Made by a program: the position numbers and the translations under genes. Under the pieces are notes generated by a model. It was not told the origin of the DNA. It made no database searches and saw only the letters and a list, made by a program, of their open reading frames with translations. From positions 1 through 30,560 of IMG/VR virus record IMGVR_UViG_3300035670_000943: DNA of 30,560 bases; one strand, given 5' to 3'. This DNA is from a virus. Below, piece by piece: positions 1 through 30,560 of this stretch (positions are counted from its first letter, which is position 1; each line of letters starts with the position of its first letter).

Positions 1-46
1 GGTCGGCGTGCGTCTCCGCGTATTATCCTTATTTTCCTAAGCCAAA

Positions 47-62
47 TCGGGGAGTTCCCCGA
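47..62. promoter_or_regulatory. Near-perfect palindrome upstream of terS
   Basis: A 16-nt inverted repeat (TCGGGGA, centre GT, TCCCCGA) lies 28 bases before the small terminase start. The two-base centre is too tight for an RNA hairpin loop, so it reads better as a DNA-binding site. Small terminases often bind near or within their own gene, so a packaging (cosB-like) site is one option and an operator is another. The rest of positions 1-89 holds no convincing gene. A weak AGGAA ribosome site sits around 79-83. Confidence 0.35.
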
Positions 63-89
63 AAATCACGAATGGGTAGGAAGAATTAG

Positions 90-563
90 ATGGGCGGCAA
101 GGGATCCGGCCGCAGGCCGAAGCCAGTGGAGCAGAAGGAGCGTCTCGGAAATCCGGGGAAGCGCAAGTTGGTGAAGGCCGAGGTGATCGCGTTGCCGTCT
201 GGCCGTGCTCCGGATCTTGAGCCGTGGCGACCGCTCGGGGAGGCAGGGCAGGCTCTGTGGAACCGGATCTGGACTTCCGGTGCCGCATGGCTGAAGCCGT
301 CGATCGACGGCGAGTTGTCTCTGATGGTCTGTGAGATGACGGACGAGCGTGTCCGTCTCCGAGCGCAGGTGTTCCGATCAGCGGACGACTGGCGCAGCCG
401 TAGGGGACTTCGAGAGTTGGATCGACAGATCGCGTCGCTGCTCGGCCAGTTGGGATTCTCCCCGACCGACCGTGCGACGCTTGGAGTAGGGGAAGTGAAG
501 AATCATGAGTTCGCAGAGTTGCACCGAAAGATCGCCGCGCGTCGACAGGCTGTCTCCGAGTAA
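90..563 (+). CDS. terS: Terminase small subunit, P27 family
   Basis: DNA-recognition subunit of the packaging motor, which binds the packaging site and loads the large subunit. The 157-aa product has the basic N-terminus (GRRPKP, residues 7-12) and GNPGKR motif (residues 20-25) typical of P27-family small terminases, followed by a helical body. The length fits the family. It is the first gene of the window, and its 3' end overlaps the large terminase start by 59 bases, which suggests translational coupling. The ATG at 90 is preceded by a purine-rich stretch. The family call is fairly firm because of the motif and the neighbouring large subunit. Confidence 0.85.
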   Translation: MGGKGSGRRPKPVEQKERLGNPGKRKLVKAEVIALPSGRAPDLEPWRPLGEAGQALWNRIWTSGAAWLKPSIDGELSLMVCEMTDERVRLRAQVFRSADDWRSRRGLRELDRQIASLLGQLGFSPTDRATLGVGEVKNHEFAELHRKIAARRQAVSE

Positions 564-2031
564 GGCGTGGGCACCGGCGTTCTACACGCCGCGCATCTGG
601 AAGCCGTCTGACGGTGCGGACGCGATCGCGTTTGCGCGTGAGCATTTCGTGGTGACGAAGGGATTCCGTGCTGGCGAGCCGCTCGAGTTCCTACCGTGGC
701 AGCGGTGGCTGCTCGGCGCACTGTTAGAGCGTCGCGAGCACGCCGATGGGCGTGCTGGCCGTCTCCGGTATCGGCGTGCTCTGATCGGCCTGCCCCGTAA
801 GCAGGGGAAGTCTCTGATCGGATCGACGCTCGGGATCTACGGGATGGTGGCTGGCGAGGCTGGCGCGGAGGTGTATGCCGTCGCCGGTGACCGGCAGCAG
901 GCAAGGATCATTTTCAATGAGGCGAAGCAGCAGGTGCAGATGTCGCCGCTGCTCTCACAGGAATGCAAGGTGTATCGCGATGTTCTCGAGATGCCGAGGT
1001 TCGGCTCGATCTTTCGCGTGCTCTCGAGCGAGTTCAAGGGACAGGCTGGACTGAATCCAAGTCTGGTGCTGTTCGACGAATTGTGGAACCAGTCGACCGA
1101 TGATCTCTGGGATCAGTTGACGCTCGGCTCCGGTGCTCGCGTCGAGCCGCTCGTGGTGGCGATCACGACCGCTGGCTTCGATCTCGAGACTCCGGCTGGC
1201 CGTCTGTACCAGCGCGGCAAGCGCATCGCGGCCGGCGAGGAGGAGGACGATACTTTCGGATTCTGGTGGTGGGAGGCTCCAGCCGACTGCGACATTCACG
1301 ATCGGAAGGCGTGGCGCATCGCGAATCCGAACATCGCCGCAGGGCTGATGGATCTCGGGGACATGGATGTCGCATCGAAGCAGTCAGCGGAGAACAGTTT
1401 CCGTCGCTGGCGATTGAACCAATGGGCGCGCACCAGCGCGGAGTCATGGCTCCCAGCAGGCGCATGGGAGGCGTGCCAGTCTGATGATGATCTGGATCCC
1501 GATCTGCCGGTATGGGTGGGGATCGACATGGCGATGAAGCATGACTCGATCGCTGTCGTCGTCGCCCAGCCGCAGGACGATCGCATTGTGCTCCGCTCTC
1601 AGATCTGGCGACCCTCTGACGAGGGTGTCGATGTGGCCGGCGTGGAAGCGCACCTACGCGAACTGCACCGCCGCTACACCGTGCAGGAGTTCGCATTCGA
1701 CCCTGCCTACTTTCTGCGCTCTGCTGAGGCTTTGCTCGATGATGGATTGCCGATGGTGGAGTTCCCACAGTCCGGTGCGCGTATGGTGCCGGCGTGCGGC
1801 CACGCATACGAGTTGATCGTTGCCGGCAAGGTGGCACACGATGGCTCTCCCACTTTCACTGATCATGTTCTCTCGGCCGCGCAGCGCATGAGCGACTCTG
1901 GCTGGCGACTCTCGAAGGGCAAGTCCAAGCGCAAGATCGACGCTTGCATTGCTATGGTGATGGCGTTGGATCGCGCCACATCCAAGCCGCGTGAGGTGGT
2001 CGCGCCGAGCGTATTGGATATCTGGGGATGA
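505..2031 (+). CDS. terL: Terminase large subunit
   Basis: ATPase and nuclease that drives DNA into the prohead and cuts it. The 508-aa product shows a Walker A-like GLPRKQGKS (residues 95-103), Walker B LVLFDE (187-192) and a coupling-type TTAG (221-224). Its C-terminal RNase H-like nuclease domain has candidate metal ligands D341 and D347 (in VGIDMAMKHD), D399 and D479. Length and layout fit the Terminase_1-type large subunit of HK97-like phages. The start at 505 has AGGGGAAG upstream at 488-495 and overlaps terS. The stop overlaps the next gene's ATG (ATGA). Confidence 0.95.
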   Translation: MSSQSCTERSPRVDRLSPSKAWAPAFYTPRIWKPSDGADAIAFAREHFVVTKGFRAGEPLEFLPWQRWLLGALLERREHADGRAGRLRYRRALIGLPRKQGKSLIGSTLGIYGMVAGEAGAEVYAVAGDRQQARIIFNEAKQQVQMSPLLSQECKVYRDVLEMPRFGSIFRVLSSEFKGQAGLNPSLVLFDELWNQSTDDLWDQLTLGSGARVEPLVVAITTAGFDLETPAGRLYQRGKRIAAGEEEDDTFGFWWWEAPADCDIHDRKAWRIANPNIAAGLMDLGDMDVASKQSAENSFRRWRLNQWARTSAESWLPAGAWEACQSDDDLDPDLPVWVGIDMAMKHDSIAVVVAQPQDDRIVLRSQIWRPSDEGVDVAGVEAHLRELHRRYTVQEFAFDPAYFLRSAEALLDDGLPMVEFPQSGARMVPACGHAYELIVAGKVAHDGSPTFTDHVLSAAQRMSDSGWRLSKGKSKRKIDACIAMVMALDRATSKPREVVAPSVLDIWG

Positions 2032-2165
2032 GAAGTTGGCTTGCTCTGTTCATTGAGATCGCAGGTGCTGTCGCTCTCGTTACCGGTGTTGCACTAATCT
2101 CGGTGCCGGCTGCACTGATTGTGGGTGGCCTATTGGCGATCATCGGGAGTGAGTTCGGCGCATGA
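2028..2165 (+). CDS. Small membrane protein between terminase and portal
   Basis: A 45-aa reading frame that is almost entirely hydrophobic, with two short helices (about residues 3-22 and 26-40) separated by SVP. It overlaps terL by ATGA at its start and the portal gene by ATGA at its end, so it is locked into the translation chain, which argues that it is real. Tiny hydrophobic ORFs at this place occur in other actinophages. I know of no demonstrated role. It could act at the membrane, or serve mainly to couple translation of the portal gene. Confidence 0.7.
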   Translation: MRSWLALFIEIAGAVALVTGVALISVPAALIVGGLLAIIGSEFGA

Positions 2166-3358
2166 GCATCATCAGGAGAGGACTCGAGCGACGCGCACTT
2201 CCGTCTGATATCGATCCGTATGGGTTGACGGCTCGGCCACAGTTCCAGAACTACTCCGGTGAACTTGTCACCGAGATGACCGCATTCGCGCACACGGCTG
2301 TGCTGTCGAGTTGTATGTTGATCGCTGATTCGCTCGCGTGTATGCCGCTGGAGTTGACGCGCGAACGCACCGGTGGACGCATTGAACGACTGCCGCGTCC
2401 GTCTCTGCTGGAGCAACCGAACGAGCGTCAGACGATGTTCGAGTTCATGCACCAAGCGGTGCTGACGATGGCGATCCACGGATCGGACTTCATCTACGCA
2501 CCGCAAGGCTCTGGCGGTATGCCAGTCGAGTTGGTGAACATTCACCCGATGCTCGTGAAGGATCTGGACAAGAACGAGGACGGCTATCTGTACCAGATCG
2601 GCAAGGAACGCTACGGACGCGATGTCGTCAAGGGTGTGCACTGGATCATGCTGCCGAATCACAAGCGCGGTGTCGCTCCGCTCGAGGTGCTCCGGAACAC
2701 GATCGGTGTCGGACTCGCGATGGACAAGTTTCTGGCGCAGTTCTACGGCGATGGCGCGACTCCGTCGAGCGTCCTCGAGACTGAAGGCACGCTGACGCAG
2801 GAGCAGGCACGGATCGCTCGCGAGACTTGGGAGGACTCTCTGTATCGTCGCCGGCGACCGGCTGTTCTCTCTGGCGGCATGAAGTGGCGACCGGTAGTGA
2901 CCAGCGCGGCTGATGCACAGATGCTTGAGCACCGCGAGGCTGTCGTGCGTGATATCGCACGCGCCTATCGCATTCCTCTGCACTTGATCGGCGGTGTCGG
3001 TGGCCAGAACGAGACCTACCAGAATGTCGAGTCTGCAGGTATTTCATTCGTCCGGTACACGCTGCTGCCGTGGATGCGGCGCATGGAAGATGTGCTGTCC
3101 GGCATGATGCCGGCGACCTATCGCGTCAAGTTCAACGCGGACGAGTTCATGCGTGCAGACATTTCGACGCGCGTCCGTGCGCAGCAAGCAATGATCATGT
3201 CCGGAACGCTGTCCCCGAACGAGGCGCGCCACATGGAGAATCGCGAACCATATGTCGGTGGCGATCAGTTTGTGCTCGGCATTGCCGGTGCTCCGATCGC
3301 CGGTGTCGATGGTGGAGATCTGCCGACGATCGGCAAGGATGCGGAGGTGGCCGAGTGA
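2162..3358 (+). CDS. Portal protein, HK97 type
   Basis: Forms the dodecameric vertex ring through which DNA enters and to which the connector binds. The 398-aa product has the usual features of the Phage_portal family: an N-terminal helical part with a TMAIHGSDF segment (102-110), a central beta wing, and a conserved stem/crown region around IPLHLIGG (271-278) and NETYQNVE (283-290). The C-terminus is SPNEAR...EPYVGGDQF (351-370), as in related HK97-type portals. It lies directly after the terminase block and before the protease, the standard order. Its stop overlaps the GTG start of the next small gene. Confidence 0.93.
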   Translation: MSIIRRGLERRALPSDIDPYGLTARPQFQNYSGELVTEMTAFAHTAVLSSCMLIADSLACMPLELTRERTGGRIERLPRPSLLEQPNERQTMFEFMHQAVLTMAIHGSDFIYAPQGSGGMPVELVNIHPMLVKDLDKNEDGYLYQIGKERYGRDVVKGVHWIMLPNHKRGVAPLEVLRNTIGVGLAMDKFLAQFYGDGATPSSVLETEGTLTQEQARIARETWEDSLYRRRRPAVLSGGMKWRPVVTSAADAQMLEHREAVVRDIARAYRIPLHLIGGVGGQNETYQNVESAGISFVRYTLLPWMRRMEDVLSGMMPATYRVKFNADEFMRADISTRVRAQQAMIMSGTLSPNEARHMENREPYVGGDQFVLGIAGAPIAGVDGGDLPTIGKDAEVAE

Positions 3359-3621
3359 AGGCGTACAAGGTGACGGTGACTGATGTTGTGACGGAATTGG
3401 TTCCGCGCGACAACATCTTTCGCGGTGTATGGGTGCAGATCGAAGGAAACAACACGGTCTACATCGGTGGCTCGAATGTGACTGCTGATCAGGGATTCCC
3501 GATCGTGAAGCACGCTGCTCCGATCGCTGGCCAACTTGGAGCCGGCGACGGACTCTGGGGAATCTGCGCTGCTGGCCAGACCGAAGTCATTCGCATCATC
3601 ACACCGGATCAGGATTCGTAA
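3355..3621 (+). CDS. Hypothetical small head-region protein
   Basis: An 88-aa protein read from a GTG at 3355 that overlaps the portal stop (GTGA). It ends in TAATG, sharing a base with the protease start. The predicted content is mostly beta strand, with a VYIGGSNVT segment near residue 37 followed by a QGFPI turn. Small proteins with a VYIGGS.VT core recur in phage structural modules, but I cannot name a proven function. A minor structural or decoration role is possible from position alone. There is no signal peptide or membrane segment. Confidence 0.75.
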   Translation: MKAYKVTVTDVVTELVPRDNIFRGVWVQIEGNNTVYIGGSNVTADQGFPIVKHAAPIAGQLGAGDGLWGICAAGQTEVIRIITPDQDS

Positions 3622-5213
3622 TGCCTTTCGGGATCTCGCAGACGCAGTCTGATTGCTCCGGCTGGGCAACCGTGAAGCAGGAAGCCGATGGCACCTACAC
3701 GACGATCGGCTGTCATGCATCGAAGCAGGAAGCGATTGACCAGATGGTTGTCGTCTCTCTGGCCGAGGACATCGAGCCGCTCGGGGATGTCGGCTCTCGC
3801 GAGATGATCTACGAGGATGTGCTCGAGCCGGATGAGCCGGAGGATGAAGGCATCGAGGTATCGGACGAGGACATTCTCGAGGTAATGGGTGAGACTGGAT
3901 TGTCGCCGCGCGACGCTGCTCTGTATGAGGCGTATGAAGCGATCGCGGAGAAGTTCGGGATGTGGACGCAGGAGGACGCGCACTACATGGCCGCGTCTCC
4001 ATTTGCGGAGGACGGGATCAAGTGTGGCAACTGTCCTCTGTTCGTCGGTGGCGGTGGCTGCGAGATCGTTGAGGGTGAGATCGCGGCCGAGGGTGTCTGC
4101 AAGTTGTGGGTGATCCGGAAGGATCTGCTCGCTCCGGCTCGCGAGCCTGAAGCCGTCTCTGACCCCTCTGGGAGCCTCACAGCCGCGTCAACCGGCACCA
4201 CGGCTGTCTCTGTCCGGTTCCAAATGAGCGAGCCGTCTGGGGCTGCTCTCGAGGTGCGTGCACCGGTGGATCTGTCTGCTCCGGCTTTCATGCGCTCCAG
4301 CGCGAAGCGTGGACTGGCTCTGCATGAGCAAGGGCTGTCCGGCGATGGGCTGAAGCCGGCGACCGTCGCGGACGCACGCAAGATGGCTGCTGGCACGATC
4401 AGCGAAGCGAAGTGGCGCAAGATCGCACCGTGGATCGCAAGGCACATTGTCGATCTCGAGGCTGTCGAGGGTGACGAGATCACTGCTGGCCTTGTCGCGA
4501 TGCTGCTCTGGGGTGGCGGCTCGAGCGCACAGTCCGCGCGTCGCGCACAGCGATACGCTGAACGGATCGTGGCGCAGTTGGATGAGCGTGGCATAAGATC
4601 GACGCAGGACTTTGACGAGGTAGATATGAGCACTGTCGAGTGGGTGAGCAAGCAAGTGGATGAGCGTCGCTCTGTCGCGTACTCGAATCTCGAAGTGCGC
4701 GCTGCCGAGGACGGAACGAAGTTGATCGGCTACGCGGCCGTGTTCGATTCCCCATCGGAGCCGATGCCGTTCACCGAGTTCGTCCGGCGCGGTGCCTTCT
4801 CCAAGACTCTGAACGACGGAGCCGATGTCCGTCTGCTCGTGGATCACGAAGGCGTGCCGCTCGCACGCACCAAGTCCGGCACGCTCTCACTGGTCGAGGA
4901 CGACCGTGGACTCCGAGTCGAGGCTGATCTGGATCCCACCAACCCTGACGCGGCTCGCATCATCTCGGCCATGCGACGCGGCGATCTGTCGCAGATGAGT
5001 TTCGCGTTCCGCACCATCAAGGACGCATGGAACGCTGACCGCTCCGTGCGCGAATTGCGCGAGGTGCAACTGTTCGATGTTTCCGTTGTGACTTTCCCAG
5101 CGTATGAAGAAACAGTTGCCGAGTTGCGCGCACTGTCCGACGCTGATACTTTGTCGCGCGTGAGTCGCACTCGCTTGCTCGCAAGTGAACTGCGCATCGC
5201 ACGAAGCAAATGA
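3621..5213 (+). CDS. Multidomain capsid maturation protease (S78-like)
   Basis: Prohead protease that removes the capsid protein's scaffold domain. In this 530-aa protein the protease is C-terminal (about 355-500). Catalytic candidates are H409 in LLVDHEG and S460 in QMSFAF, as in the U35/S78 herpes-like fold. N-terminal parts, in order: a small domain with GCHASKQEA (30-38), an acidic stretch (48-90), a four-cysteine cluster (C135, C138, C147, C160; C-x2-C-x8-C-x12-C) that could bind metal or an Fe-S centre, and a helical domain (222-325) containing TVADARKMA and LLWGGG. Such fusions occur in actinophage head modules. An in-frame ATG at 4626 (M336) with GAGGT upstream could give a separate 195-aa protease. 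Confidence 0.88.
   Translation: MPFGISQTQSDCSGWATVKQEADGTYTTIGCHASKQEAIDQMVVVSLAEDIEPLGDVGSREMIYEDVLEPDEPEDEGIEVSDEDILEVMGETGLSPRDAALYEAYEAIAEKFGMWTQEDAHYMAASPFAEDGIKCGNCPLFVGGGGCEIVEGEIAAEGVCKLWVIRKDLLAPAREPEAVSDPSGSLTAASTGTTAVSVRFQMSEPSGAALEVRAPVDLSAPAFMRSSAKRGLALHEQGLSGDGLKPATVADARKMAAGTISEAKWRKIAPWIARHIVDLEAVEGDEITAGLVAMLLWGGGSSAQSARRAQRYAERIVAQLDERGIRSTQDFDEVDMSTVEWVSKQVDERRSVAYSNLEVRAAEDGTKLIGYAAVFDSPSEPMPFTEFVRRGAFSKTLNDGADVRLLVDHEGVPLARTKSGTLSLVEDDRGLRVEADLDPTNPDAARIISAMRRGDLSQMSFAFRTIKDAWNADRSVRELREVQLFDVSVVTFPAYEETVAELRALSDADTLSRVSRTRLLASELRIARSK
4620..4628 (+). promoter_or_regulatory. Possible internal translation start for the free protease domain
   Basis: GAGGT lies four bases before an in-frame ATG at 4626, exactly at the boundary between the helical accessory domain and the protease domain of the 3621-5213 gene. 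Initiation here would give a 195-residue protein, a common size for a stand-alone HK97-type prohead protease. The spacing is short but usable. The site is seen in the sequence; its use is inference. Confidence 0.35.
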
Positions 5214-5294: not shown

Positions 5295-6593
5295 ATGGCA
5301 CATTCAGACACTCTCATCGAGAAGCGCGCTGCGCTGATCGCACAGGCAGAGCAGATCGTCGAGACCGCGAAGGTCGAAGAGCGCGATCTCACCGTCGAGG
5401 ACGAGCAGACGATCGACTCTGCGCTCGAGGAAGTTCGCTCGCTGGACGAGCAGATCGCTCGCCACAAGGATCTCGAGGCTCGCGCTGCCGAGGCCGCTGA
5501 TCTCCGCGCCGCCCACAAGATCGAAGAGGCTCCGGCTCGCGTTGTGCGCGAGGCTCGCACCTACTCCGAGCGTGGCGACCACTCGTTCCTCACTGACGCA
5601 TTCAACGCACAGTTCCGTGGCGACTCGCTCGCGAACGAGCGTCTCGCGCGCCACATGAACGAGGAGCGCATCGAGCGTCGCGATGTCACCAGCGCAAACT
5701 TCGCTGGACTCGTGGTGCCGCAGTACCTGATCGACCTCGCTGCTCCTTTCGCACGCGCCGGTCGACCCGTCGCTGACCGCGCACGCAAGCACCAGTTGCC
5801 GGATGCCGGACTCACACTGTCGATCTCGAAGGTGACGACCGGATCGTCCGTCGCGAACCAGACCGAAGGTGCTGCCGTCTCCGAGACGAACATGGACGAC
5901 ACCAAGTTGGACATCTCAGTCGCGACCGTCGCTGGCCAGCAGACCGTTTCGCGTCAGGCTCTCGAGCGCGGCACCGGTGTCGACATGATCGTGATGGGCG
6001 ATCTCATCTCGGCGTATCACACGAAGGTCGACGCGAATGTCGTGGCCGAACTTCTTGCGTCCGCTGGGCAGAGCGTCACGGCCACCGATGCCTCACCGAC
6101 CGTCGCTGAGTTGTACCCCAAGTTGGCTGACGCTGTGCAGAAGGTGCAGACCACTTTCTACGCTGGCCCGAACGCGATCATCATGCATCCGCGTCGACTG
6201 GCGTGGTTCATGGCTGCTCTCGACACGACCAACCGTCCGCTCGTGGTGCCTGCACCGCGTTCGCAGAACGGTGTGGGTGCTGGCGAAGGTTCACCGCAGT
6301 ACGGCAACAGCGGCTACGAGATCATGGGACTCCCGATCATCACCGACGCGAATGTCACGACCGCCGAAGGCGCAGGCACGAACGAAGATGTGATCTTCAT
6401 CGGCAACCTGCAGGAACTGCACCTCTGGGAGCAGGGCAACGGCGAGCCGATGTACCTGCGCTTCGATCAGCCGAAGGCTGCGGAACTCGATGTTCTCGCA
6501 GTGGTCTACGGCTATGTCGCGTACACCGCCAACCGCTACGCGAACGCGTGGGCGAAGGTGACCGGCACCGCTCTCGTCGCACCGACATTCTGA
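5295..6593 (+). CDS. Major capsid protein, HK97 fold
   Basis: Main shell protein. The 432-aa product starts with a long charged coiled-coil segment (about residues 1-80), the delta-type scaffold removed by the protease upstream. The Phage_capsid body follows from about residue 125 onward: PQYLIDLAAPFARAGRP, a P-domain region with an NAIIMHPRRLAWF segment, and a C-terminal strand region. The start is well supported by AAGGA eight bases upstream. An 81-base gap separates it from the protease gene. A strong hairpin follows the stop (6601-6648) and may set the level of downstream message. Confidence 0.95.
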   Translation: MAHSDTLIEKRAALIAQAEQIVETAKVEERDLTVEDEQTIDSALEEVRSLDEQIARHKDLEARAAEAADLRAAHKIEEAPARVVREARTYSERGDHSFLTDAFNAQFRGDSLANERLARHMNEERIERRDVTSANFAGLVVPQYLIDLAAPFARAGRPVADRARKHQLPDAGLTLSISKVTTGSSVANQTEGAAVSETNMDDTKLDISVATVAGQQTVSRQALERGTGVDMIVMGDLISAYHTKVDANVVAELLASAGQSVTATDASPTVAELYPKLADAVQKVQTTFYAGPNAIIMHPRRLAWFMAALDTTNRPLVVPAPRSQNGVGAGEGSPQYGNSGYEIMGLPIITDANVTTAEGAGTNEDVIFIGNLQELHLWEQGNGEPMYLRFDQPKAAELDVLAVVYGYVAYTANRYANAWAKVTGTALVAPTF

Positions 6594-9552: not shown

Positions 9553-12138
9553 ATGGCTGGCACACGCAAACTCACGCTGCAGATCCTCGGTAATGCGAAG
9601 GGTGCTCTGACTGCTCTCGGACAGACCGATTCCGCGAGTGCGAAGTTCGGCACCCAGATGAGCGCAGTCTCGAGGAAGGTGGGATTGGCATTCGCCGGTA
9701 TCACCGCTGCTGCCGGCTACATGGGCACCAAGTTTGTGTCGGCCGCGTATGAGTCGCAGAAGGTGATGAAGCAGACCGAGGCTGTGATCGCGGCTACCGG
9801 CAAGGCCGCTGGCATGACTTCGACGCAGGTGGCCGATCTCGCAGAGTCGCTGTCAATGAAAACCGGTGTCGACGACGAACAGATCCAGTCGTCTCTCAAC
9901 ATGCTGCTCACTTTCAAGCAGGTGCGAAACGAGATGGGTGCCGGCAACGATGTGTTTAACCGTGCTAGCGCGGTGATGCTCGATCTGGCGAATGTGTTCG
10001 GCTCGACTGACTCGGCCGCGATGCAGTTGGGCAAGGCTCTGTCTGATCCGGTGCGTGGTGTGACCGCTCTGCGGCGCGCCGGTGTGAACTTCACTGAGCA
10101 GCAGCAGGAGCAGATCAAGACGCTTGTCGCGTCTGGCAGGACTCTCGAGGCGCAGAAACTGATTCTGGCTGAGGTCGAGTCTCAGGTAGGTGGCACTGCT
10201 GCCGCGTCTGCGACGGCCTTCGACAAGATGCGTGTCGCTGTCGGGAATGTGCAGGAGGAGATCGGCGGCTTGCTGATTCCAGTTGTGGAGCGCATCTCGA
10301 ACTATGTGATCTCAAATGTCGTGCCGGTGTTCGAGGAATTCGCTGCGATCACTGGCGAGCAGGGACTTGGGGCTGGGATCGAGTATCTGTCTGGCTCGAT
10401 TCTGAATCTGTTCACCGGACTTGGCACTGGCGGCAAGATCGTGCTCGGCCTTGTGTCCGGATTCGCTGCTCTGAAGGTAGCGACGCTCACCTACTCCGGT
10501 GTGATGGGTGCTCTGAATGTGATCACGACCGTCACGAGTGGCTCACTGTCGACGCTGATCACACGGCTCGGCGCGGCGAAGGTTGCGATGATGGCGGCTG
10601 GCGGTGTGACCGCTCTGCTCTCTGTGGCCGCGACTCTGTACGGCGTGTACTCATCCAAGAAGGCTGACGCTGCGAACAAGACGATGGATCTGGTCAATGC
10701 GTTGAAGCAGGAAGGGCAGGCGCAGAAGGAGGCTCTGGCGCAGGCGTACCGCAATGATTCGCAGTTCCGGAAGTCGATCGACACGCTGACTTCTCTCGGC
10801 CACCAGACGAGCGCGTTCAGCGCGTATGTGCAGAACGGCACTGGCATTCTGTCGATCTACGAGCGGTATGTGAAGGAATACAACGCGTCGCTTGCAGAGA
10901 TGAATGTCGTGACCGGCAACGCATCTCCGGCTCTCGATCGCAAGGCTGCTGCCATCGACGCGCTCCGCGAGAAGATTCCGCGTCTGCGGAATGCGACTGA
11001 TGATCAAGTTGTGGGATTCCTCAACATGATGAAGGTGATGTCCGGTGTCCGTGCCGAGTTCAAGGCCGGCGAGGAAGCGATGAAGGTGTTCGGCGCGACC
11101 GCTGCCAGCGTGACTCCGACCGTCACCGGCACTGGCACGGCCGCTGATGAGACAGGCAAGAAAACCAAGACGCTCGCGGAGAAGATTCGTGACTTCAAGA
11201 CTGCGCTTGAGTCTGCGTCCGGTGCGCAGCGATCCTTCCAGTCTGCTGTCGGGGATACGAAGAAGGCGCAGGACGCTCTCGCAACTGCGACGACCAATGT
11301 CGCGAACGCGCAGGCTCACTTCGATCAGATCGTCCGTGGCTACGGTGCCGGCTCCACACAAGCAGCCGATGCTCAGGGTGTGCTCGAGCAGGCGCAGCGT
11401 GACGCGACCCGTGCCGGTTTCGATCTGGAGCGCGCCAACTACGCAGTGACCGACGCTGTCGAAGCATTGAACGAGGCGCGTGCTGGCGGCAACGCAGAGG
11501 AGATCAGGCTCGCGGAGATCGCTCTCGCGGAGGCGCAGTTCGCTGTCACCGAGCAGCAGATCCGGCAGCGTGAAGCAACGGACGCTGTGACGGCTGCGCA
11601 GACCCGTCTGAACGAAGTGGTGAACGGTGCGGCTGAAGGATCGACGACCTACAAGGCTGCGCAGGATGCTCTCACTGCCGCCCAGCAAGCACAGGTCGAT
11701 GCGACCGATCGTCTGACTGATGCGAAGTATCGCGAGGGTGAAGCGACGCGCCGGCTCGCGCAGGAAGAGGCACGGCTGCTCGCGCTGAAGTCGATCGTCA
11801 AAACGAAGAAGGGGAAGAAGGCTGTTCAGGGATTCGTCATGGGTGGCGGTGTGCTGCCGCAGAAGGTGATCGATGTTCTGAACAAGTTGGGTGCGAACAT
11901 TCCGGCTCTCGCGTCCGGTGGCATCGCGACGAAGGCGACGCTGGCTCTGATCGGGGAACGCGCTCCGGAGGCTGTCATCCCTCTCGACCGGCTCGGGGAC
12001 ATGGGTGGCGGCGGTGGCGACACTTTCATTGTGAATGTGAACAGCAAGATCGCGGACGAGACGCTGCCGGATCTGCTCGTGGCCGAGTTGCGGAAGTTCA
12101 ACCGCCGCTCCGGTGCGATCAACATTCAGGTGGCGTGA
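9553..12138 (+). CDS. Tape measure protein
   Basis: Sets tail length and is ejected ahead of the DNA. At 861 aa it is by far the largest product. The N-terminal third is Ala/Gly/Ser-rich and helical. Residues about 296-366 are a hydrophobic block with candidate membrane helices (IVLGLVSGFAALKVATL, MMAAGGVTALLSVAATLYGV). Residues about 546-746 are a long Ala/Gln/Glu coiled coil. The C-terminus has LIGERAPEAVIPLDRLG (about 800-816) and a Gly run, a common tape-measure end. At about 0.15 nm per residue the tail would be near 130 nm, which is an inference. Confidence 0.93.
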   Translation: MAGTRKLTLQILGNAKGALTALGQTDSASAKFGTQMSAVSRKVGLAFAGITAAAGYMGTKFVSAAYESQKVMKQTEAVIAATGKAAGMTSTQVADLAESLSMKTGVDDEQIQSSLNMLLTFKQVRNEMGAGNDVFNRASAVMLDLANVFGSTDSAAMQLGKALSDPVRGVTALRRAGVNFTEQQQEQIKTLVASGRTLEAQKLILAEVESQVGGTAAASATAFDKMRVAVGNVQEEIGGLLIPVVERISNYVISNVVPVFEEFAAITGEQGLGAGIEYLSGSILNLFTGLGTGGKIVLGLVSGFAALKVATLTYSGVMGALNVITTVTSGSLSTLITRLGAAKVAMMAAGGVTALLSVAATLYGVYSSKKADAANKTMDLVNALKQEGQAQKEALAQAYRNDSQFRKSIDTLTSLGHQTSAFSAYVQNGTGILSIYERYVKEYNASLAEMNVVTGNASPALDRKAAAIDALREKIPRLRNATDDQVVGFLNMMKVMSGVRAEFKAGEEAMKVFGATAASVTPTVTGTGTAADETGKKTKTLAEKIRDFKTALESASGAQRSFQSAVGDTKKAQDALATATTNVANAQAHFDQIVRGYGAGSTQAADAQGVLEQAQRDATRAGFDLERANYAVTDAVEALNEARAGGNAEEIRLAEIALAEAQFAVTEQQIRQREATDAVTAAQTRLNEVVNGAAEGSTTYKAAQDALTAAQQAQVDATDRLTDAKYREGEATRRLAQEEARLLALKSIVKTKKGKKAVQGFVMGGGVLPQKVIDVLNKLGANIPALASGGIATKATLALIGERAPEAVIPLDRLGDMGGGGGDTFIVNVNSKIADETLPDLLVAELRKFNRRSGAINIQVA

Positions 12139-13469: not shown

Positions 13470-14537
13470 ATGGGAAGCACCACCACAAACTTTGCGATTC
13501 CGTATCCTGCCGTCACCGACTTCGTCACTGATGGTGCGCAGAACATGGAGGACATTGCCGAGCGTGTCGACGCTGTGCTCGGCGCGGTGACCGGTGGACG
13601 CAACCGTCTGATCAACGGCGACTTCCGTGTCGCCCAGCGCGGCACCAGTTTCGTCGCCGGCGCGAACAACGACGACACCTACAACCTTGATCGCTGGACT
13701 CTGCTCTCTGACGGCAACGACATTGTCGATGTGACGCAAGCGAATGTGGCACCGACCGGTGGGCTGTTCTCGATCGGGCTGGATGTCGAGACCGCGAACA
13801 AGAAGTTCGGGATTCTGCAGATCATCGAGCAGCGGAACATCATCGGCTGCTATGGCCAGCAGTGCACCCTGTCGTTCAAGTTCCGCACCAGCGGTTCGTC
13901 GATCAACAATGTGAAGGCGGCGATCCTGTCGTGGACTGGCACCGCGGACACGGTGACGAGCGATGTCGTCTCAGCGTGGAATGCGGACAACACGATTCCG
14001 ACTTGGGCGACGAACTGGACAGCGGAGAACACGCCAGCGAACTTGAATCCATCTAACAGTTGGCAGACCGCGACGATCACTGCGCTCGTGGACACGGCCA
14101 GCGTCAACAACATCGCGGTGTTCATTTGGTGCGATGATCTGACGACAACGATCGGTGACTTTCTGTATGTCACTGATGTGCAGTTCGAGGTGGGTGAGAC
14201 CGGCTCGACATTTGAGCGGCGACAGATGCAACAGGAACTTGCACTCTGCCAGCGGTATTACCAGCGACTAGGTAATGCGAACCTCGGTATCTGGGGAACG
14301 GGCTACACGCCTACATTTTCGCAGTATGTAAGTGTCTATCTTGCTTATCGGGTGAACACCAGAACGACGTCACCGACGATTACGAAAGTCGGCACATGGG
14401 GTGGAGTATCAACAAACTTCATTGGCATCACCGACTCTGGTGTGACGATCTATCACGGTGGAAGTGCGTCAGCAGGATTCTGGGAGTTCTACACTCTCTC
14501 TGCAAGTACCTATGTCGAGGTATCTAATGAACTTTGA
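13470..14537 (+). CDS. Tail fibre / receptor-binding protein with carbohydrate-binding-like domain
   Basis: A 355-aa structural protein with AGGAG before its ATG. Residues 1-43 attach to the tail (FAIPYPAVTDFVTDGAQNM). NRLINGDFRVAQRG (45-58) followed by a YNLDRW turn starts a jelly-roll domain like carbohydrate-binding modules in many phage fibres. FEVGETGSTFERR with ELALCQRYYQRL (about 238-266) is a widespread phage fibre linker. The C-terminal part (from about 14240) has lower G+C and freer codon use than the rest, and carries the only ACGT word in the window. Its role is likely host-surface binding. Confidence 0.8.
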   Translation: MGSTTTNFAIPYPAVTDFVTDGAQNMEDIAERVDAVLGAVTGGRNRLINGDFRVAQRGTSFVAGANNDDTYNLDRWTLLSDGNDIVDVTQANVAPTGGLFSIGLDVETANKKFGILQIIEQRNIIGCYGQQCTLSFKFRTSGSSINNVKAAILSWTGTADTVTSDVVSAWNADNTIPTWATNWTAENTPANLNPSNSWQTATITALVDTASVNNIAVFIWCDDLTTTIGDFLYVTDVQFEVGETGSTFERRQMQQELALCQRYYQRLGNANLGIWGTGYTPTFSQYVSVYLAYRVNTRTTSPTITKVGTWGGVSTNFIGITDSGVTIYHGGSASAGFWEFYTLSASTYVEVSNEL

Positions 14538-16839: not shown

Positions 16840-17457
16840 GTGGCTGAGTTCAAGAATCCCAGCAAGGCGAAGCAGGCCGCGCGGAAGGTCGCTGCGAAGG
16901 CGACGCGGAAATCTGCACTGGTCTACCCCTACAAGCGGCTCGTGCTCCCCTCTGCGCTCGCTGGCCAGAAGAACGGCCGTCTGCATCCGGAGTTGCTCGC
17001 TCGCATCAAGTGCGGAGGGCAGATGTGGACTGGCGCGGCGCGCGCATTCAACGCGATGTATGACCATGCGAAGCGTGACGGGATCGTGCTGCGCAACATC
17101 GGGGACTACCGGCCGTATGAACGGATTCTGGCTCTGTTCCACGACCGGTACTCGCTGAAGGATCAAGGCCGGAAGCCGCAGGTGACGCGGCGTTTCGACG
17201 GCAAGGTGTGGTATCTGAAGAAGGGGAAGGCTCCAGCGGCTGCTCCGGATCCGACCGGCAAGACCGGCTCGAACCACGGCTGGGGACTTGCGATCGATCT
17301 CGATGTCACGAACGGCAAGGTGCTCCGGTGGCTGTGCACCAACGCGCCGACCTACGGGTTCTATCTGCAAGGCTCCGATCCGAAGTCGCCGGAGTTCGAG
17401 GCATGGCATTGGCAGTTTGTGCTCGGGGACAAGTCTCCCGATGTGCTCAGCAAGTGA
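16840..17457 (+). CDS. Endolysin, peptidase M15 (VanY-like) domain
   Basis: Peptidoglycan hydrolase cutting stem peptides. The 205-aa product has a basic N-terminal 30 residues and an M15 domain: SNHGWGLAIDLD gives zinc ligands H146 and D153, and EAWHWQF gives the catalytic E187 and third ligand H190. This is the D-Ala-D-Ala carboxypeptidase or L-Ala-D-Glu endopeptidase fold. There is no signal peptide, so export depends on the holins. The start is GTG at 16840. There is no separate wall-binding domain unless the basic N-terminus plays that part. Confidence 0.9.
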   Translation: MAEFKNPSKAKQAARKVAAKATRKSALVYPYKRLVLPSALAGQKNGRLHPELLARIKCGGQMWTGAARAFNAMYDHAKRDGIVLRNIGDYRPYERILALFHDRYSLKDQGRKPQVTRRFDGKVWYLKKGKAPAAAPDPTGKTGSNHGWGLAIDLDVTNGKVLRWLCTNAPTYGFYLQGSDPKSPEFEAWHWQFVLGDKSPDVLSK

Positions 17458-21035: not shown

Positions 21036-21986
21036 ATGAAGACGATCCCGAAACCTATCCACGGCTCTGCCGACTGGCTGCTGGCACGCTGGCGCGACGA
21101 GCATGATCGAGTTGTGTTCGGAGCCAGCGACGCGCCGGCTCTGATGAACGCATCTCCCTACAAGACGCGCGGTGATCTGTTCGTCGACAAGTTGCACCGG
21201 CCGGCTGTGCAGGAATCCAACGCGGTGTTTCACCGTGGCAATGTGCTCGAGCCTGCACTCGTCTCTGAGGCCGCGCGTGTGCTCGGCATCGAGGCGGTGA
21301 CTCCGGATCTGATGTATTGCTCTGACCGGTTCCGGATCTCGCTGGACGGTGTCAATGACGAGGCTGATCCCGATGTGGTGATCGAGGCCAAGACGACGAC
21401 GCGGTACCGGATCGACGGTGCTGATGATCTGCCACCGGAATGGCTGTGGCAGGCGTGGGCGCAGACCGCTGTGACCGGTGCACCGGTGTGGTTCTCTGTG
21501 CTTGATCGCGACATGAAGATCACTGTCGTCGAGGCTCCAGCGAACGCTGGCGCGGTGGACGCGCTGCTCGAGGAGGCTGAGATATTCGCTGCGCTCGTGG
21601 AGGCCGGTGCTCTGCCGGACGCGCTGGACGACTTCAGTTCGGAGCACATCGCGGCGATCGCGAAGCCGGAGCCGACACGGATCGAGTTGCCGGCTGACGC
21701 TCTCGCACTCGTGGAGCAGTTGGAGATGGCTCGAGGTGTGAAGAAGTCTGCGGAGCAGGAGGAGAAGCAAGCGCGTGATGCTCTCGCGCGTCTGCTCGGC
21801 ACCAACGAGGTGGGCACTGTCGCTGGGCATGATGTCATCTCGTGGAAGCAGCAGAAGGGACGATCGCGTGTCGACACGCGCGCTCTGCTCGAGGCGTATC
21901 CTGATCTGCGTGAGCAGTTCACCGTGACCGGTGAGCCGATCCGCGTGATGCGAGTTCTCATCAACACACACAAGGAAGGGGAATGA
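21036..21986 (+). CDS. YqaJ-type PD-(D/E)XK recombination nuclease
   Basis: A 316-aa exonuclease candidate. Motifs: WLLARW and GASDAPALMN at the N-terminus, RGNVLEP (E72), SLDGV (D104), IEAKTT (E117, K119) and WQAWAQ (Q139, Q143). These match the lambda exonuclease/YqaJ fold used with a single-strand annealing partner. The C-terminal third is a coiled coil plus a small domain. AAGGAGG before ATG 21036 makes this a well-translated gene. Its partner is the next gene. Confidence 0.88.
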   Translation: MKTIPKPIHGSADWLLARWRDEHDRVVFGASDAPALMNASPYKTRGDLFVDKLHRPAVQESNAVFHRGNVLEPALVSEAARVLGIEAVTPDLMYCSDRFRISLDGVNDEADPDVVIEAKTTTRYRIDGADDLPPEWLWQAWAQTAVTGAPVWFSVLDRDMKITVVEAPANAGAVDALLEEAEIFAALVEAGALPDALDDFSSEHIAAIAKPEPTRIELPADALALVEQLEMARGVKKSAEQEEKQARDALARLLGTNEVGTVAGHDVISWKQQKGRSRVDTRALLEAYPDLREQFTVTGEPIRVMRVLINTHKEGE

Positions 21987-22867: not shown

Positions 22868-23333
22868 TCTGTTCCCCTACGCCGGCTCACAAGGCCATGT
22901 CGAGCAGCCTGCATCGCTGGAGCGTGCGCGGCGTGAGCGTGCCTCTGGCGCGTTCTCAGCGCGCGTACAGAGCGTGCTGACGGAGTTGCAGCGTCGAGGG
23001 CTGCATGGCGGCACTTGGCAAGAGTTGGGTGATGTGCTCGGCCTGCACCACGGCCAGATCTCCGGTGCTCTCTCTGTGCTCCACAAGGCCGGCGCGGTAT
23101 TCATGACTCGATCCCAACGCGGCCGGTGTCATGTGTATGTCCATGCTGCGCTGCGTGATCAGTTTCAGGAGACGCAACGGATCGACGAGCCGGTGCGTAC
23201 CAAGTCCGCGATCCGGCGTGAGGCTCTCGAGGCTGTGCTGCTCGCAGCCGAATTGGTGCTCCGATTCGACGGCACCGATCGGCTGTCGCTCGAGCAGTTG
23301 CGTGAAGCCGTCTGGGAGGTGCGCTCTCTGTGA
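22860..23333 (+). CDS. Winged-helix DNA-binding protein, MarR-like pattern
   Basis: A 157-aa product read from GTG 22860, with GGAGGGAGG upstream inside the previous gene. Residues 35-95 form a winged helix: VLTELQRRG, TWQELGDVLGLHHGQISGALSVLHKAG (52-78), then the wing FMTRSQRGRCHVYVH. The C-terminal helical part may dimerise. Such proteins are common in actinophage replication regions. Overlaps the WhiB gene by four bases, so the two regulators are probably made together. Confidence 0.75.
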   Translation: MTDLFPYAGSQGHVEQPASLERARRERASGAFSARVQSVLTELQRRGLHGGTWQELGDVLGLHHGQISGALSVLHKAGAVFMTRSQRGRCHVYVHAALRDQFQETQRIDEPVRTKSAIRREALEAVLLAAELVLRFDGTDRLSLEQLREAVWEVRSL

Positions 23334-23608
23334 CCAAGAAGTATTGGCAGGATGATGCGGCGTGTCTCGGGGAACCACTATCTGTGTTCTTTCCCGAGGG
23401 GACGACCGACAAGAAGTGGCAGCGCGCGATCGCGATCTGTCAGCAGTGCACGGTGCAGAAGCAATGTCTCGATCTCGTGATCGGGCTGGACGAGTTGTCT
23501 GACCGGTACGGAGTGTTCGGTGGACTCACCCCATATCAGCGGATGTTGGAGCGTGATCGACGGAACGGAATTGTCAGGACAGTCAAGTTGAAAGGATCAG
23601 TGTCATGA
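23330..23608 (+). CDS. whiB: WhiB-family iron-sulfur regulator
   Basis: A 92-aa product from GTG 23330. The four WhiB cysteines are present: C12 in DAACLG, then C37-x2-C40-x5-C46. GVFGGL, the turn that follows the cluster, is also present. WhiB proteins bind a [4Fe-4S] cluster and the primary sigma factor, and occur only in Actinomycetota and their phages, which is the best host marker here. Phage copies may redirect host transcription. The basic C-terminus (ERDRRNGIVRTVKLKG) suits DNA contact. Confidence 0.93.
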   Translation: MTKKYWQDDAACLGEPLSVFFPEGTTDKKWQRAIAICQQCTVQKQCLDLVIGLDELSDRYGVFGGLTPYQRMLERDRRNGIVRTVKLKGSVS

Positions 23609-27301: not shown

Positions 27302-27477
27302 TGACGCTGCCTTCGAGCATGGCCTTCGAGATCGCGAAGTGGCGACTCAGGATGGCTGTCATTGATTCCCAGATCGCGCACGCACGCGCGCATCTGGAGT
27401 ATGTGCAATTCGTCGCGGACGCTCTGGATGAGGCTCTGTCCGATCCACGACCGAAGGAGGGAACCAATGAGGAATGA
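27301..27477 (+). CDS. Hypothetical early protein, 58 aa
   Basis: ATG 27301 overlaps the previous stop (TGATG). Helical throughout (SMAFEIAKWRLRMAVIDSQIA, AHLEYVQFVADALDEAL). Its last codons contain the AAGGAGG ribosome site of the next gene, which it overlaps by 11 bases. No family recognised. Confidence 0.55.
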   Translation: MTLPSSMAFEIAKWRLRMAVIDSQIAHARAHLEYVQFVADALDEALSDPRPKEGTNEE

Positions 27478-27646
27478 TTACCCCGACGCGCAGCCGCTGT
27501 CGCTGAAGGAGATCTCTGATCGGGACACGGTGCTGCTCGCTGCTGATGTTCTTACTCGCGCCGCGCTCGGCTCCGAGTGGACTCTCGAGGCTCACCGGCT
27601 GCTGAAGCGTGCTCTGCTCGGCATTGTGGACGGAGTCCGGCCATGA
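27467..27646 (+). CDS. Hypothetical early protein, 59 aa
   Basis: ATG 27467 has a very good AAGGAGG six bases upstream. Helical (SLKEISDRDTVLLAADVLTR, EAHRLLKRALLGIVDG). ATGA overlap with the next gene. No family recognised. Confidence 0.6.
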   Translation: MRNDYPDAQPLSLKEISDRDTVLLAADVLTRAALGSEWTLEAHRLLKRALLGIVDGVRP

Positions 27647-27915
27647 TCCCCGAGCCGGCACGCACGATCCTTTCCGAGTCGACCACCGTCGATCTCGCTG
27701 CTGGGCTGGCCGCGTGCGACGCGCTCCCACCGGACGAGCATCTCGACAACCGGACGCTCCGCGCATGGATCATCGACACGCTCTCCGCTCGGCACCCTGA
27801 GGTGCGTCGCGCTCTGGATCTCTGGCTCGCTGATCTGGCGCACCCAGCGTCGATGTCGGAGATCGTGCTCGGCACCCTGCACCGAGCCGGACTGATCGAG
27901 GAGGTGCCGGCATGA
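27643..27915 (+). CDS. Hypothetical early protein, 90 aa
   Basis: Helical, Leu/Ala/Asp-rich (TTVDLAAGLAACDALPPDE, TLRAWIIDTLSARHPEVRRALDLWLADLA, SEIVLGTLHRAGLIEEV). Weakly like a small helical adaptor. It shares the L-R-W-L style with neighbours but I cannot claim homology. ATGA overlaps on both sides. Confidence 0.62.
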   Translation: MIPEPARTILSESTTVDLAAGLAACDALPPDEHLDNRTLRAWIIDTLSARHPEVRRALDLWLADLAHPASMSEIVLGTLHRAGLIEEVPA

Positions 27916-28169
27916 GCGGCGACGAATGGATCCTGACCTACCGTGTCCCCGATCCCGAGTTCGGCTGGCCGATGGAGCGGTACGAGCAGATCCGTGTGCC
28001 GGTGCTGCTCCGGCCGGAGCACGCTGTGGAGATCGAGCGCGTTATGCACAGGCTGTCCACGCTGGCTGTGGAAGCCGACACTCAGGCACGCCGGCTCGAG
28101 CAGGAAGTGCACCGGCTCGAGCGACTCTCTGTGTCGATCTGGCAACGCATCCGAGGAGGCCGCGCATGA
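27912..28169 (+). CDS. Hypothetical coiled-coil protein, 85 aa
   Basis: N-terminal strand part (EWILTYRVPDPEFGWPMERYEQIRVPVLL), then a coiled coil (EIERVMHRLSTLAVEADTQARRLEQEVHRLERL) and a basic end. No family recognised. Its end carries the GAGGAGG of the next gene. Confidence 0.62.
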   Translation: MSGDEWILTYRVPDPEFGWPMERYEQIRVPVLLRPEHAVEIERVMHRLSTLAVEADTQARRLEQEVHRLERLSVSIWQRIRGGRA

Positions 28170-28402
28170 ACGACCGTGACGCTGTCCGTCGCTGGCTGCT
28201 GAATGTCCATGTCGCGGATTGGGATCGCTGGCAGCGCACCAAGCGCGTCTGCGCTCTGCTCTGCTGGATCATCGGCATCGCCGCTGTCGGCGGCACCGAG
28301 TGGGATCCCACCACACCGGACAACGCGAACTACGGGCTGGCTCTGTTCGCTCTCGCAGCCGCTGCTGGATTTATGTGGAGCGTTCATCACAGGGAACGCT
28401 GA
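28166..28402 (+). CDS. Two-helix membrane protein, 78 aa
   Basis: The N-terminal 28 residues are basic and cytoplasmic (RRWLLNVHVADWDRWQRTKR). Helices run about 29-44 (VCALLCWIIGIAAVGG) and 57-71, with a Trp/Asp/Pro loop between and a basic end (HHRER). Both ends inside. Possible membrane-acting early protein such as an exclusion factor; unproven. Well supported by GAGGAGG upstream. Confidence 0.65.
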   Translation: MNDRDAVRRWLLNVHVADWDRWQRTKRVCALLCWIIGIAAVGGTEWDPTTPDNANYGLALFALAAAAGFMWSVHHRER

Positions 28403-28434
28403 TCCGTCTCGCTGTACGATCCTCTGCTCTGAGT

Positions 28435-28481
28435 GGCGGTGCTGCGGCCATTGGTGTGGTTGCCGGTACTGCGGCACCGCC
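28435..28481 (+). terminator. Long-stem hairpin before the last early genes
   Basis: GGCGGTGC (28435-28442) pairs with GCACCGCC (28474-28481). Five further inner pairs (28443-28447 with 28469-28473, two G-U) make about 13 bp. It lies in the 104-base gap after the 28402 stop and just before the AGGAGG of the 28507 gene, so it is more likely an attenuator than a full terminator. Confidence 0.45.
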
Positions 28482-28506
28482 TCTCACCTATCCCTGAGGA
28501 GGATCT

Positions 28507-28662
28507 ATGTCTGCCAGCCGTCTCACCGTCACCGATCTCGAGTGGGCTGTGCACTTCCTACGGCGCACTGTGGTGCTCGGAGTGGACGATCAGGAACGGC
28601 TGATTGCTACGGTGGAGGCACTCGAGGCCGAGATCGCGCGCCGGAGGAGGAAGCATGACTGA
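28507..28662 (+). CDS. Hypothetical 51-aa protein
   Basis: ATG 28507 has AGGAGG seven bases upstream. Helical: DLEWAVHFLRRTVVLGVDDQERLIATVEALEAEIARRRRKHD. The pattern of two helices with a D-D-Q turn suggests a small dimer. Its end overlaps the next start by eight bases and holds that gene's GGAGGAGG. No family recognised. Confidence 0.6.
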   Translation: MSASRLTVTDLEWAVHFLRRTVVLGVDDQERLIATVEALEAEIARRRRKHD

Positions 28663-28867
28663 CGCAATGGAAACCGAGTTGCTGCTCGAACGCATCGACT
28701 CGCTGTCTGTCGCTGCCGAGGCAGTGCGCGAGGAGCGTGACCGTCTCCGCACCGAGTTGATCGAGGTGCTCGACTCTCTGACTCTCGCTGTGCAGGAACG
28801 CGACCGTCTCCGATCGGATGTCTCGAGACTCCAGCGGCTGCTCGCGACTGGCGACACCGAGGACTGA
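28655..28867 (+). CDS. Hypothetical coiled-coil protein, 70 aa
   Basis: ATG 28655 with GGAGGAGGA upstream. Almost all coiled coil (LLLERIDSLSVAAEAVREERD, LIEVLDSLTLAVQERDRLRSD, VSRLQRLL), acidic. Likely oligomeric. No family recognised. Confidence 0.62.
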   Translation: MTDAMETELLLERIDSLSVAAEAVREERDRLRTELIEVLDSLTLAVQERDRLRSDVSRLQRLLATGDTED

Positions 28868-28891
28868 CCAGCAACCGAGGAGGGTGCACAA

Positions 28892-30226
28892 GTGAACAAA
28901 CTCAAGTTGAAGTCGATCGATGTCGCAGTCGATCAGATCGTTCCCCATCCGGAGAATGTCCGGCAAGGCGATGTGGGTGCGATCTCACAGTCGCTCGAGA
29001 AGCACGGCCAGTACCGACCGATCGTGGTGCAGGAATCCACGCGGCACATCCTCGCCGGCAACCACACCTATCGTGCTGCTGTCTCGCTCGGCTGGAAGAA
29101 GATCGCGGCCGTGTTCGTCGATGTCGACGACGAGACCGCGCGACGGATCATGCTCGTCGACAACCGACTGAACGATCTCGCGACCTACGACGAGGACGCA
29201 CTCGTGGCTCTGCTCTCCGAGTTGGCCAAGACCGAGGACGGACTCGAAGGCACCGGATACTCCGGAGACGATCTGGACGATCTCATCGCCGCAATGGACG
29301 ACACCCCACCGATGAAGCCAGACCGCGACTCTGTCCCCGACACCGTGCGAGCGATCTGCTCCCTCGGAGATATCTGGATCCTCGGCCAGCACCGTCTGAT
29401 CGTCGGAGACTCCACCGATCCCGACACTTACGCTCGGCTGCTCGATGGCAAGCCAGCACAGGCTGTGTGGACTGATCCACCGTACAATGTCGCTGTCGAA
29501 GGCAAGGCCGGCACGATCATGAACGACGACATGGCGACCGCCGAGTTCGCTGTGTTCCTACGCTCTGTGTTCACCGCGCTTGCCCAGCACACCGCGAAGG
29601 GTGCACCGATCTATGTCGCCCACTCCGAGACCGAGCGTGCCGCATTCACCAACGCATTCCTCGAGGCAGGATTTAAGTTGTCGTCGGTGATCATCTGGCG
29701 CAAGTCCAGCATGACGCTCTCACGCTCTGACTACCAATGGCAGCACGAACCGATCCTCTACGGCTGGCGCGAAGGCGCAGGCCACAAGTGGCACGGCGGC
29801 AGGAAGCGCACCACGATGGCCGAAGCCGACTTCGACGCTGTCACCCAGATCGACGACCACACATGGCACATGAGCGTTGGCAACCAGTTGCTGGTCATCT
29901 CCGGCACTGATCTCACCGTGGAAGCATTCGAGTCGACCGTGCTCGAGATCTCGAAGCCCAAGTCCAGCGACCTGCACCCCACCATGAAGCCAGTCGGCCT
30001 TGTCGCTCGGCACCTACTGAACAGCACACGCACCGGCGCGACCGTGCTGGATCCATTCGGCGGCTCCGGCTCAACATTGATCGCGTGTCAAGAAACAGGG
30101 AGGGCTGCAAGACTGATCGAGTTGGATCCCCACTACGCCGATGTGATCTGTGGAAGGTTCCAGCAGCAGACAGGGATCAAGCCAGTGCACGCTCTCACCG
30201 GCGCAGAAGCCGATTGGCTGCTCTGA
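28892..30226 (+). CDS. ParB-like domain fused to DNA methyltransferase
   Basis: A 444-aa product from GTG 28892 with GAGGAGGG upstream. Residues about 8-110 are a ParB/Srx-like domain (VDQIVPHPENVR, RPIVVQ, ILAGNHTYRAA). Residues about 160-425 are an amino-methyltransferase of the beta class: catalytic TDPPYN (194-199) comes first, HPTMKP (362-367) and the AdoMet-binding DPFGGSGST (387-395) follow. It would methylate adenine N6 or cytosine N4 in phage DNA. No restriction partner is near, so protection of phage DNA is the likely role. The target site cannot be read from sequence. Overlaps the HNH gene by one base. Confidence 0.9.
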   Translation: MNKLKLKSIDVAVDQIVPHPENVRQGDVGAISQSLEKHGQYRPIVVQESTRHILAGNHTYRAAVSLGWKKIAAVFVDVDDETARRIMLVDNRLNDLATYDEDALVALLSELAKTEDGLEGTGYSGDDLDDLIAAMDDTPPMKPDRDSVPDTVRAICSLGDIWILGQHRLIVGDSTDPDTYARLLDGKPAQAVWTDPPYNVAVEGKAGTIMNDDMATAEFAVFLRSVFTALAQHTAKGAPIYVAHSETERAAFTNAFLEAGFKLSSVIIWRKSSMTLSRSDYQWQHEPILYGWREGAGHKWHGGRKRTTMAEADFDAVTQIDDHTWHMSVGNQLLVISGTDLTVEAFESTVLEISKPKSSDLHPTMKPVGLVARHLLNSTRTGATVLDPFGGSGSTLIACQETGRAARLIELDPHYADVICGRFQQQTGIKPVHALTGAEADWLL

Positions 30227-30528
30227 TGCCGCGCGTCCCAAAGCCATGCCTGAACTGTGGCCGCCTCACCACACGCATCTCCCGATGCGAACCTTGTCAG
30301 CGACACCACGACGGCCTCTACGACTCCGAGTACCGGAGGCTCGCCGCTGTCGTCCGCGCCACCGCTGTCCTCTGCCACATCTGCGGAGAAGGCGAACGCA
30401 CTGACGATCCGTGGCAAGCCGACCATGTGGTGGCCGGCGACCGATCGTCCCCACTCGCCGCTGCACATCGATCGTGCAACATCCGGAAGGGCGACCGTCG
30501 AGAGTGGGACGGACGCGACCGTCGATGA
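30226..30528 (+). CDS. HNH endonuclease next to the packaging end
   Basis: A 100-aa product, TGATG overlap with the methyltransferase. A zinc-type N-terminus (C8-x2-C11, C21-x2-C24) precedes the HNH domain: C50-x2-C53, ADHVVAG (D66, H67) and HRSCNIRKG (H81 to K88, with C84 and N85). HNH proteins beside the terminase genes help the large terminase cut cos ends in HK97-like phages. If the two window ends join, it sits just before terS, as expected. Confidence 0.88.
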   Translation: MPRVPKPCLNCGRLTTRISRCEPCQRHHDGLYDSEYRRLAAVVRATAVLCHICGEGERTDDPWQADHVVAGDRSSPLAAAHRSCNIRKGDRREWDGRDRR

Positions 30529-30560
30529 ATTTTCCGGAGAGGGGGAAGGGGCTGCGACAT
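30529..30560. other. Right-end non-coding tail, possible cos side
   Basis: These 32 bases are purine-rich (GAGAGGGGGAAGGGGCTG). Joined to the left end they give CGACATGGTCG across the junction, a short inverted repeat. I see no direct repeat between the two window ends. Confidence 0.35.

Follow-up and report, generated by a model that had tools for sequence, protein, structure and literature searches.

What removes whole classes of short DNA words from a virus genome, and how far can the removal go? The question is raised by IMG/VR virus record IMGVR_UViG_3300035670_000943, a tailed phage analysed here over its full length of 30,560 bases (hereafter, the window), in which every called gene lies on the plus strand. 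The original prediction was that two palindromes, AGCT and ACGT, had been stripped from this DNA, put at about 62% G+C by eye (61.0% when computed), through long selection, either by host restriction or by a phage nuclease with the same targets. Both losses are real, but the list was incomplete: at least six further palindromes and two asymmetric words are equally eliminated, and the proteins have nearly lost the dipeptides Pro-Gly and Gly-Pro. Very probably the window represents a lineage of tailed actinophages long restricted by many host Type II restriction-modification systems.

Words eliminated from the window

An exact count found no AGCT and a single ACGT, at 14367-14370, just as had been read by eye. 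The prediction that roughly 100 of each should occur by chance was also accurate: synonymous-codon shuffles (n=200), which keep both the protein and the codon usage, gave means of 104.4 for AGCT (sd 7.2, minimum 85) and 107.8 for ACGT (sd 7.4, minimum 91). Expectations were 107 each under independent bases, 115.5 and 125.8 under a Markov-1 model, and 118 and 90 under a maximal-order Markov model. The bending of codon choice that had been described was evident as well. Leucine following a codon that ends in AG is written TTG or TTA in 56 of 56 cases, compared with 39 of 720 elsewhere, and Asp, Asn, Tyr and His codons preceding GTN end in T in 95 of 95 cases, compared with 408 T and 718 C elsewhere.

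A greedy search over 4,112 palindromic IUPAC motifs, in which each motif was masked once found, first returned CCNGG, GGNCC, AGCT, ACGT, RGCGCY, GRCGYC, GRGCYC and CCWWGG. Relative to the synonymous-codon shuffles, the six words new to this list occurred 1 time vs 167 expected (CCNGG), 1 vs 137 (GGNCC), 0 vs 72 (RGCGCY), 1 vs 63 (GRCGYC), 0 vs 44 (GRGCYC) and 0 vs 21 (CCWWGG). Pooled, the eight palindromes occupy 4 positions vs 694 in the shuffles, and each stands at 0-1.6% of expectation, where an observed/expected ratio below 0.1 was counted as near-elimination. Two asymmetric words, CCCGC/GCGGG (0 vs 118) and GGCGGA/TCCGCC (0 vs 39), are missing from both strands. The eight palindromes have the ordinary form of Type II sites, of the ScrFI, Sau96I, AluI, MaeII, HaeII, AcyI, BanII and StyI types.

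Chance, base composition and codon usage are ruled out as causes by the Markov and synonymous-codon nulls, and a similar search with a Markov-2 expectation called zero motifs in 10 Markov-2 and 15 codon-shuffled copies of the window. A general avoidance of palindromes is ruled out too, since other palindromes are untouched: GATC (467 vs 258), TCGA (370 vs 245), CGCG (402 vs 298) and CCGG (275 vs 220) are retained, and GCGC and GGCC are likewise not depleted. We also observed that GATC and TCGA lie well above the codon-shuffle expectation and that runs of CCC or GGG are rare. Weaker candidates, including GCCN5GGC (0/18), RCATGY (1/12), CCGCGG (1/20), CCGNCGG and TA-rich words, may reflect composition or the loss of other words.

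Loss of two dipeptides from the proteins

Every Pro-Gly, encoded by CCN GGN, contains a CCNGG, and every Gly-Pro contains a GGNCC. These two dipeptides have nearly vanished from the proteome because neither can be encoded without the corresponding site. They are the most depleted of all 400 dipeptides (1 vs 31.9 expected, each); in residue-shuffled proteins (n=2,000) the pair together occurred 60.7 times (sd 7.3, minimum 40). The remaining CCNGG and GGNCC encode the only Pro-Gly and the only Gly-Pro of the called proteome (Table 1). Out-of-frame CCNGG and GGNCC are also gone from the window, and no dipeptide forces AGCT, ACGT or RGCGCY.

In alignments with homologues the window keeps 1 of 78 Pro-Gly, compared with 57-63% of Pro-Ala, Ala-Gly and Pro-Ser. 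Most replacements change one residue, the commonest being Ala-Gly (19 of 78), Pro-Asn (14), Ser-Gly (12) and Pro-Thr (9), in counts that pool related phages and are not independent.

Metagenomic relatives, defined as IMG/VR contigs with a terminase 68-90% identical to that of the window, provide a natural experiment that separates synonymous from protein-level escape. In clade contigs that have lost CCNGG (n=54), Pro-Gly occurs 22 times vs 660 expected. Contigs that have lost only CCWGG (n=12) contain 178 vs 200 expected, and write the proline of Pro-Gly as CCG or CCC in 176 of the 178 cases, with CCA and CCT making up 42% of all their proline codons. Clade contigs without GGNCC contain 33 Gly-Pro vs 649 expected. 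Over 69 contigs, which are related to one another and whose genes were called by a simple rule, CCNGG correlates with Pro-Gly at 0.95 and GGNCC with Gly-Pro at 0.91, compared with 0.53 and 0.58 for the crossed pairs. The Pro-Gly contrast is the cleaner of the two because controls, too, are somewhat short of Gly-Pro (17 vs 43 in the Pontimonas phage phiPsal1). We consider it likely that host restriction edits phage proteomes in this manner, such that full restriction of CCNGG clears Pro-Gly from nearly every protein and restriction of GGNCC does the same to Gly-Pro.

Turnover of lost words among relatives

A comparison with related phages, proposed in the original prediction, indicated that the relatives are also purged of palindromes, in changing sets. 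Clade contigs of at least 9.5 kb have from 6 to at least 20 eliminated palindromes each; control contigs, found via the methyltransferase, have a median of about one, and phiPsal1 has one. Some relatives also lack GATC, TCGA, CATG, GGCC, CCGG, CGCG or GTYRAC, and L104 retains AGCT (90/76) and CCCGC (31/32). On the terminase tree, many inner branches of which are weakly supported, the minimum numbers of state changes are 7 for CCGG, 6 for TCGA, 5 for RGCGCY and 3 for CCSGG. The terminase of the relative L081 is 90% identical to that of the window, and the head genes of the two share 75% nucleotide identity. Of the 9 alignable RGCGCY and 9 alignable GRCGYC sites of L081 the window keeps none, but it keeps 26 of 71 GCGC and 42 of 64 GATC sites. 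Five other contigs, L107 (G018), L099, L113, L114 and L126, have almost no GATC or TCGA, both of which are abundant in the window.

Comparison with known phages

The nearest isolate by terminase is phiPsal1 (MG835450; L162), with a large terminase protein (TerL) 37% identical to that of the window; it has been described as lytic (PMC6106888). The window shares with it the order of the genes from small terminase to capsid, a WhiB gene, an N6 DNA methylase gene and a phosphodiesterase-like gene in a genome of about 31 kb. It differs in that phiPsal1 has no comparable avoidance: AGCT occurs 54 times and ACGT 145 times, and a single palindrome is weakly avoided. That sole depleted palindrome is RAATTY (3 vs 32), which hints at a restriction specificity among the hosts of phiPsal1.

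Two cultured but unrelated phages of known cyanobacterial hosts, Anabaena phage A-4L (KF356198; L223, L226) and Nostoc phage N1 (KU234532; L225, L227), have also lost several palindromes, though fewer than the window: 9 in A-4L and 6 in N1 (first 30.6 kb of each), partly the same words (GGNCC, GGCC, RCATGY). Both lack GGNCC altogether and both lack Gly-Pro (0 vs 35 expected in A-4L, with sd 5.6 and a shuffle minimum of 19; 0 vs 34 in N1), and unlike the window they keep CCNGG and Pro-Gly (33 vs 35 and 36 vs 34, respectively). This amounts to zero Gly-Pro across about 12,000 residues in each phage. Enzymes cutting GGNCC and GGWCC have classically been obtained from Anabaena and Nostoc. Both dipeptides are kept in phiC31.

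It is well established that phages escape by discarding Type II sites, and about one viral genome in ten has done so completely or almost completely (PMC6286503). Rusinov et al. (2018; PMC6286503) reported avoidance of restriction sites by non-temperate phages and explained it by selection from host restriction. Their cases resemble the window in the near-complete loss of Type II palindromes. The window differs in that at least eight palindromes are lost together in 30 kb, along with two asymmetric words, and in that protein sequence is overridden; the text of that paper makes no mention of codons, amino acids or dipeptides.

Proposed host restriction and its alternatives

In the mechanism that we favour, a phage genome carrying an unmethylated site would be cut on entering a restricting cell, site-free variants would survive, and repeated rounds would strip the word almost entirely. 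Where a synonymous way out is available only codon choice would shift; where there is none, as for Pro-Gly in CCNGG and Gly-Pro in GGNCC, the protein would change, usually at one of the two residues, with Ala-Gly, Pro-Asn, Ser-Gly and Pro-Thr, and likewise Ala-Pro and Gly-Thr, as examples. Long selection by host restriction, one of the two causes originally proposed, is the best-supported reading, with at least eight to ten targets in place of two. It has become stronger on three grounds: the eliminated words correspond to ordinary specificities of Type II enzymes, the missing set differs between close relatives, and protein sequence gives way to the loss. Several points weigh against it. The agent is deduced from its traces in the phage; eight to ten specificities would be a large number for a single streamlined aquatic actinobacterium; two of the lost words, CCCGC and GGCGGA, belong to the asymmetric kind of site, which is seldom avoided (PMC6286503); one ACGT persists without being forced by the protein; and phiPsal1, an actinophage of the same gene order, is free of such avoidance.

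If restriction is the agent, its enzymes could be spread over the strains of a population or could all reside in one host strain, an arsenal such as is found in bloom-forming cyanobacteria. We regard the single strain as possible but the less likely arrangement. It would suit the multiple, partly shared losses in A-4L and N1, the hosts of which are known to combine several Type II enzymes in a strain, but the lost sets differ even between phages with terminases 88-90% identical, which a shifting population with many specificities fits better, and WhiB together with the phiPsal1-like gene order points away from cyanobacteria. A mutational origin, in which deamination of methylated cytosines within the words erodes them in the absence of selection, appears very unlikely. 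In its favour, C and G occur in every lost word, and one of the replacements, Ser-Gly, is what a C-to-T change can make of Pro-Gly. Against it, deamination yields neither of the two commonest replacements, and the second C-to-T product to be expected, Leu-Gly, was not seen. Moreover, residual counts of 0-1 against expectations of 20-167, and the overriding of protein sequence, require selection, as mutation would leave functionally constrained residues in place.

The other cause originally proposed, a phage nuclease or, more broadly, a modification scheme of the phage that makes the words harmful to itself, is more improbable still. The phage does carry a fusion of ParB and a methyltransferase, but apart from a methyltransferase no restriction-type nuclease or defence gene was found in the proteins scanned with Pfam, PHROGs or PADLOC; one enzyme could not cover about ten unrelated words in changing sets, and avoidance is almost absent from phages elsewhere that encode related ParB-methyltransferases. 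The least credible alternative is that the proteins shun Pro-Gly and Gly-Pro for reasons of translation or folding and that the DNA words follow. These are indeed the dipeptides most depleted in the window, yet each is lost only along with its own word. The dissociation of the two in A-4L and N1, and the normal Pro-Gly of the relatives that have lost only CCWGG, rule such selection out; the missing out-of-frame sites and the lost words that no dipeptide forces also speak against it.

Site avoidance was already known, but this extent of it and the ban on dipeptides seem undescribed. In the literature searched, coverage of which was incomplete, we found no description of 8-20 lost words per genome, and no paper on dipeptide loss by restriction came up among sources that largely excluded subscription journals. 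The window indicates how far escape by mutation alone can go, with at least eight sites cleared and proteins altered where codons give no exit. If the interpretation is correct, restriction enzymes exert long-term selection on amino-acid sequence, and a dipeptide missing from a phage proteome reveals the enzyme carried by its hosts. Every phage database allows an immediate check of this dipeptide rule, and studies of phage protein conservation should consider that the absence of a Pro-Gly or Gly-Pro may originate in the DNA. The lost words also predict restriction specificities of the aquatic host population, which could aid host finding.

Phage genome and host

Gene calls for the window were made in this analysis and cover 92% of it as coding sequence (Table 1). 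No integrase was found among the window proteins scanned with Pfam, many of which have no family, and the same scan found only one methyltransferase. A nucleotide search of isolated phages with the window returned a single short match, in the tape measure gene.

Table 1. Genes and remaining sites of eliminated palindromes in the window.
Feature	Coordinates	Strand	Remarks
Small terminase	90-563	+	Assigned by position, without a Pfam match; holds the single Pro-Gly
Sole CCNGG	153-157	+	In-frame CCG GGG (Pro-Gly) in the small terminase; synonymous escape impossible; same place in L081 and L083
Large terminase	505-2031	+	Query used for gathering clade relatives
Portal	2162-3358	+	
Prohead protease	3621-5213	+	
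HK97-type major capsid protein	5295-6593	+	Holds the single Gly-Pro
Sole GGNCC	6165-6169	+	In-frame GGC CCG (Gly-Pro) in the capsid protein; synonymous escape impossible; same place in L081, L082 and L083
Tape measure	9553-12138	+	
Sole ACGT	14367-14370		Within GACGTC (14366-14371), the sole GRCGYC; protein sequence does not force it
VanY-type peptidase	16840-17457	+	
YqaJ recombinase	21036-21986	+	
WhiB-like regulator	23330-23608	+	Marker of an actinobacterial host
ParB-N / N6-N4 DNA methyltransferase fusion	28892-30226	+	DPPY motif

The host is probably an aquatic actinobacterium, as suggested by the predicted WhiB-like regulator, a type of protein that is used to recognise actinobacterial hosts at the level of phylum (PMC6802176, PMC12143481). 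A terminase scan for the host through prophages and genome contigs yielded only L163, a contig of 4.6 kb with a terminase 71% identical to that of the window. It is binned in a metagenome-assembled genome titled Proteobacteria bacterium WB5_2B_004, another contig of which has a WhiB match, and its placement there is probably a binning error. Neither that bin nor five genomes of its phylum yielded a match to the HaeII family, an uninformative result.

The ParB-N / N6-N4 methyltransferase may protect one of the retained words. Four AT-rich viral contigs (36-40% G+C; L023, L025, L047 and L068) encode a related ParB-methyltransferase and, unlike the other methyltransferase relatives, are missing many palindromes, among them GGCC, CCNGG, CCGG, TCGA, GCWGC and GGNCC; they probably form another phage group, unrelated to the first, that has lost multiple sites.
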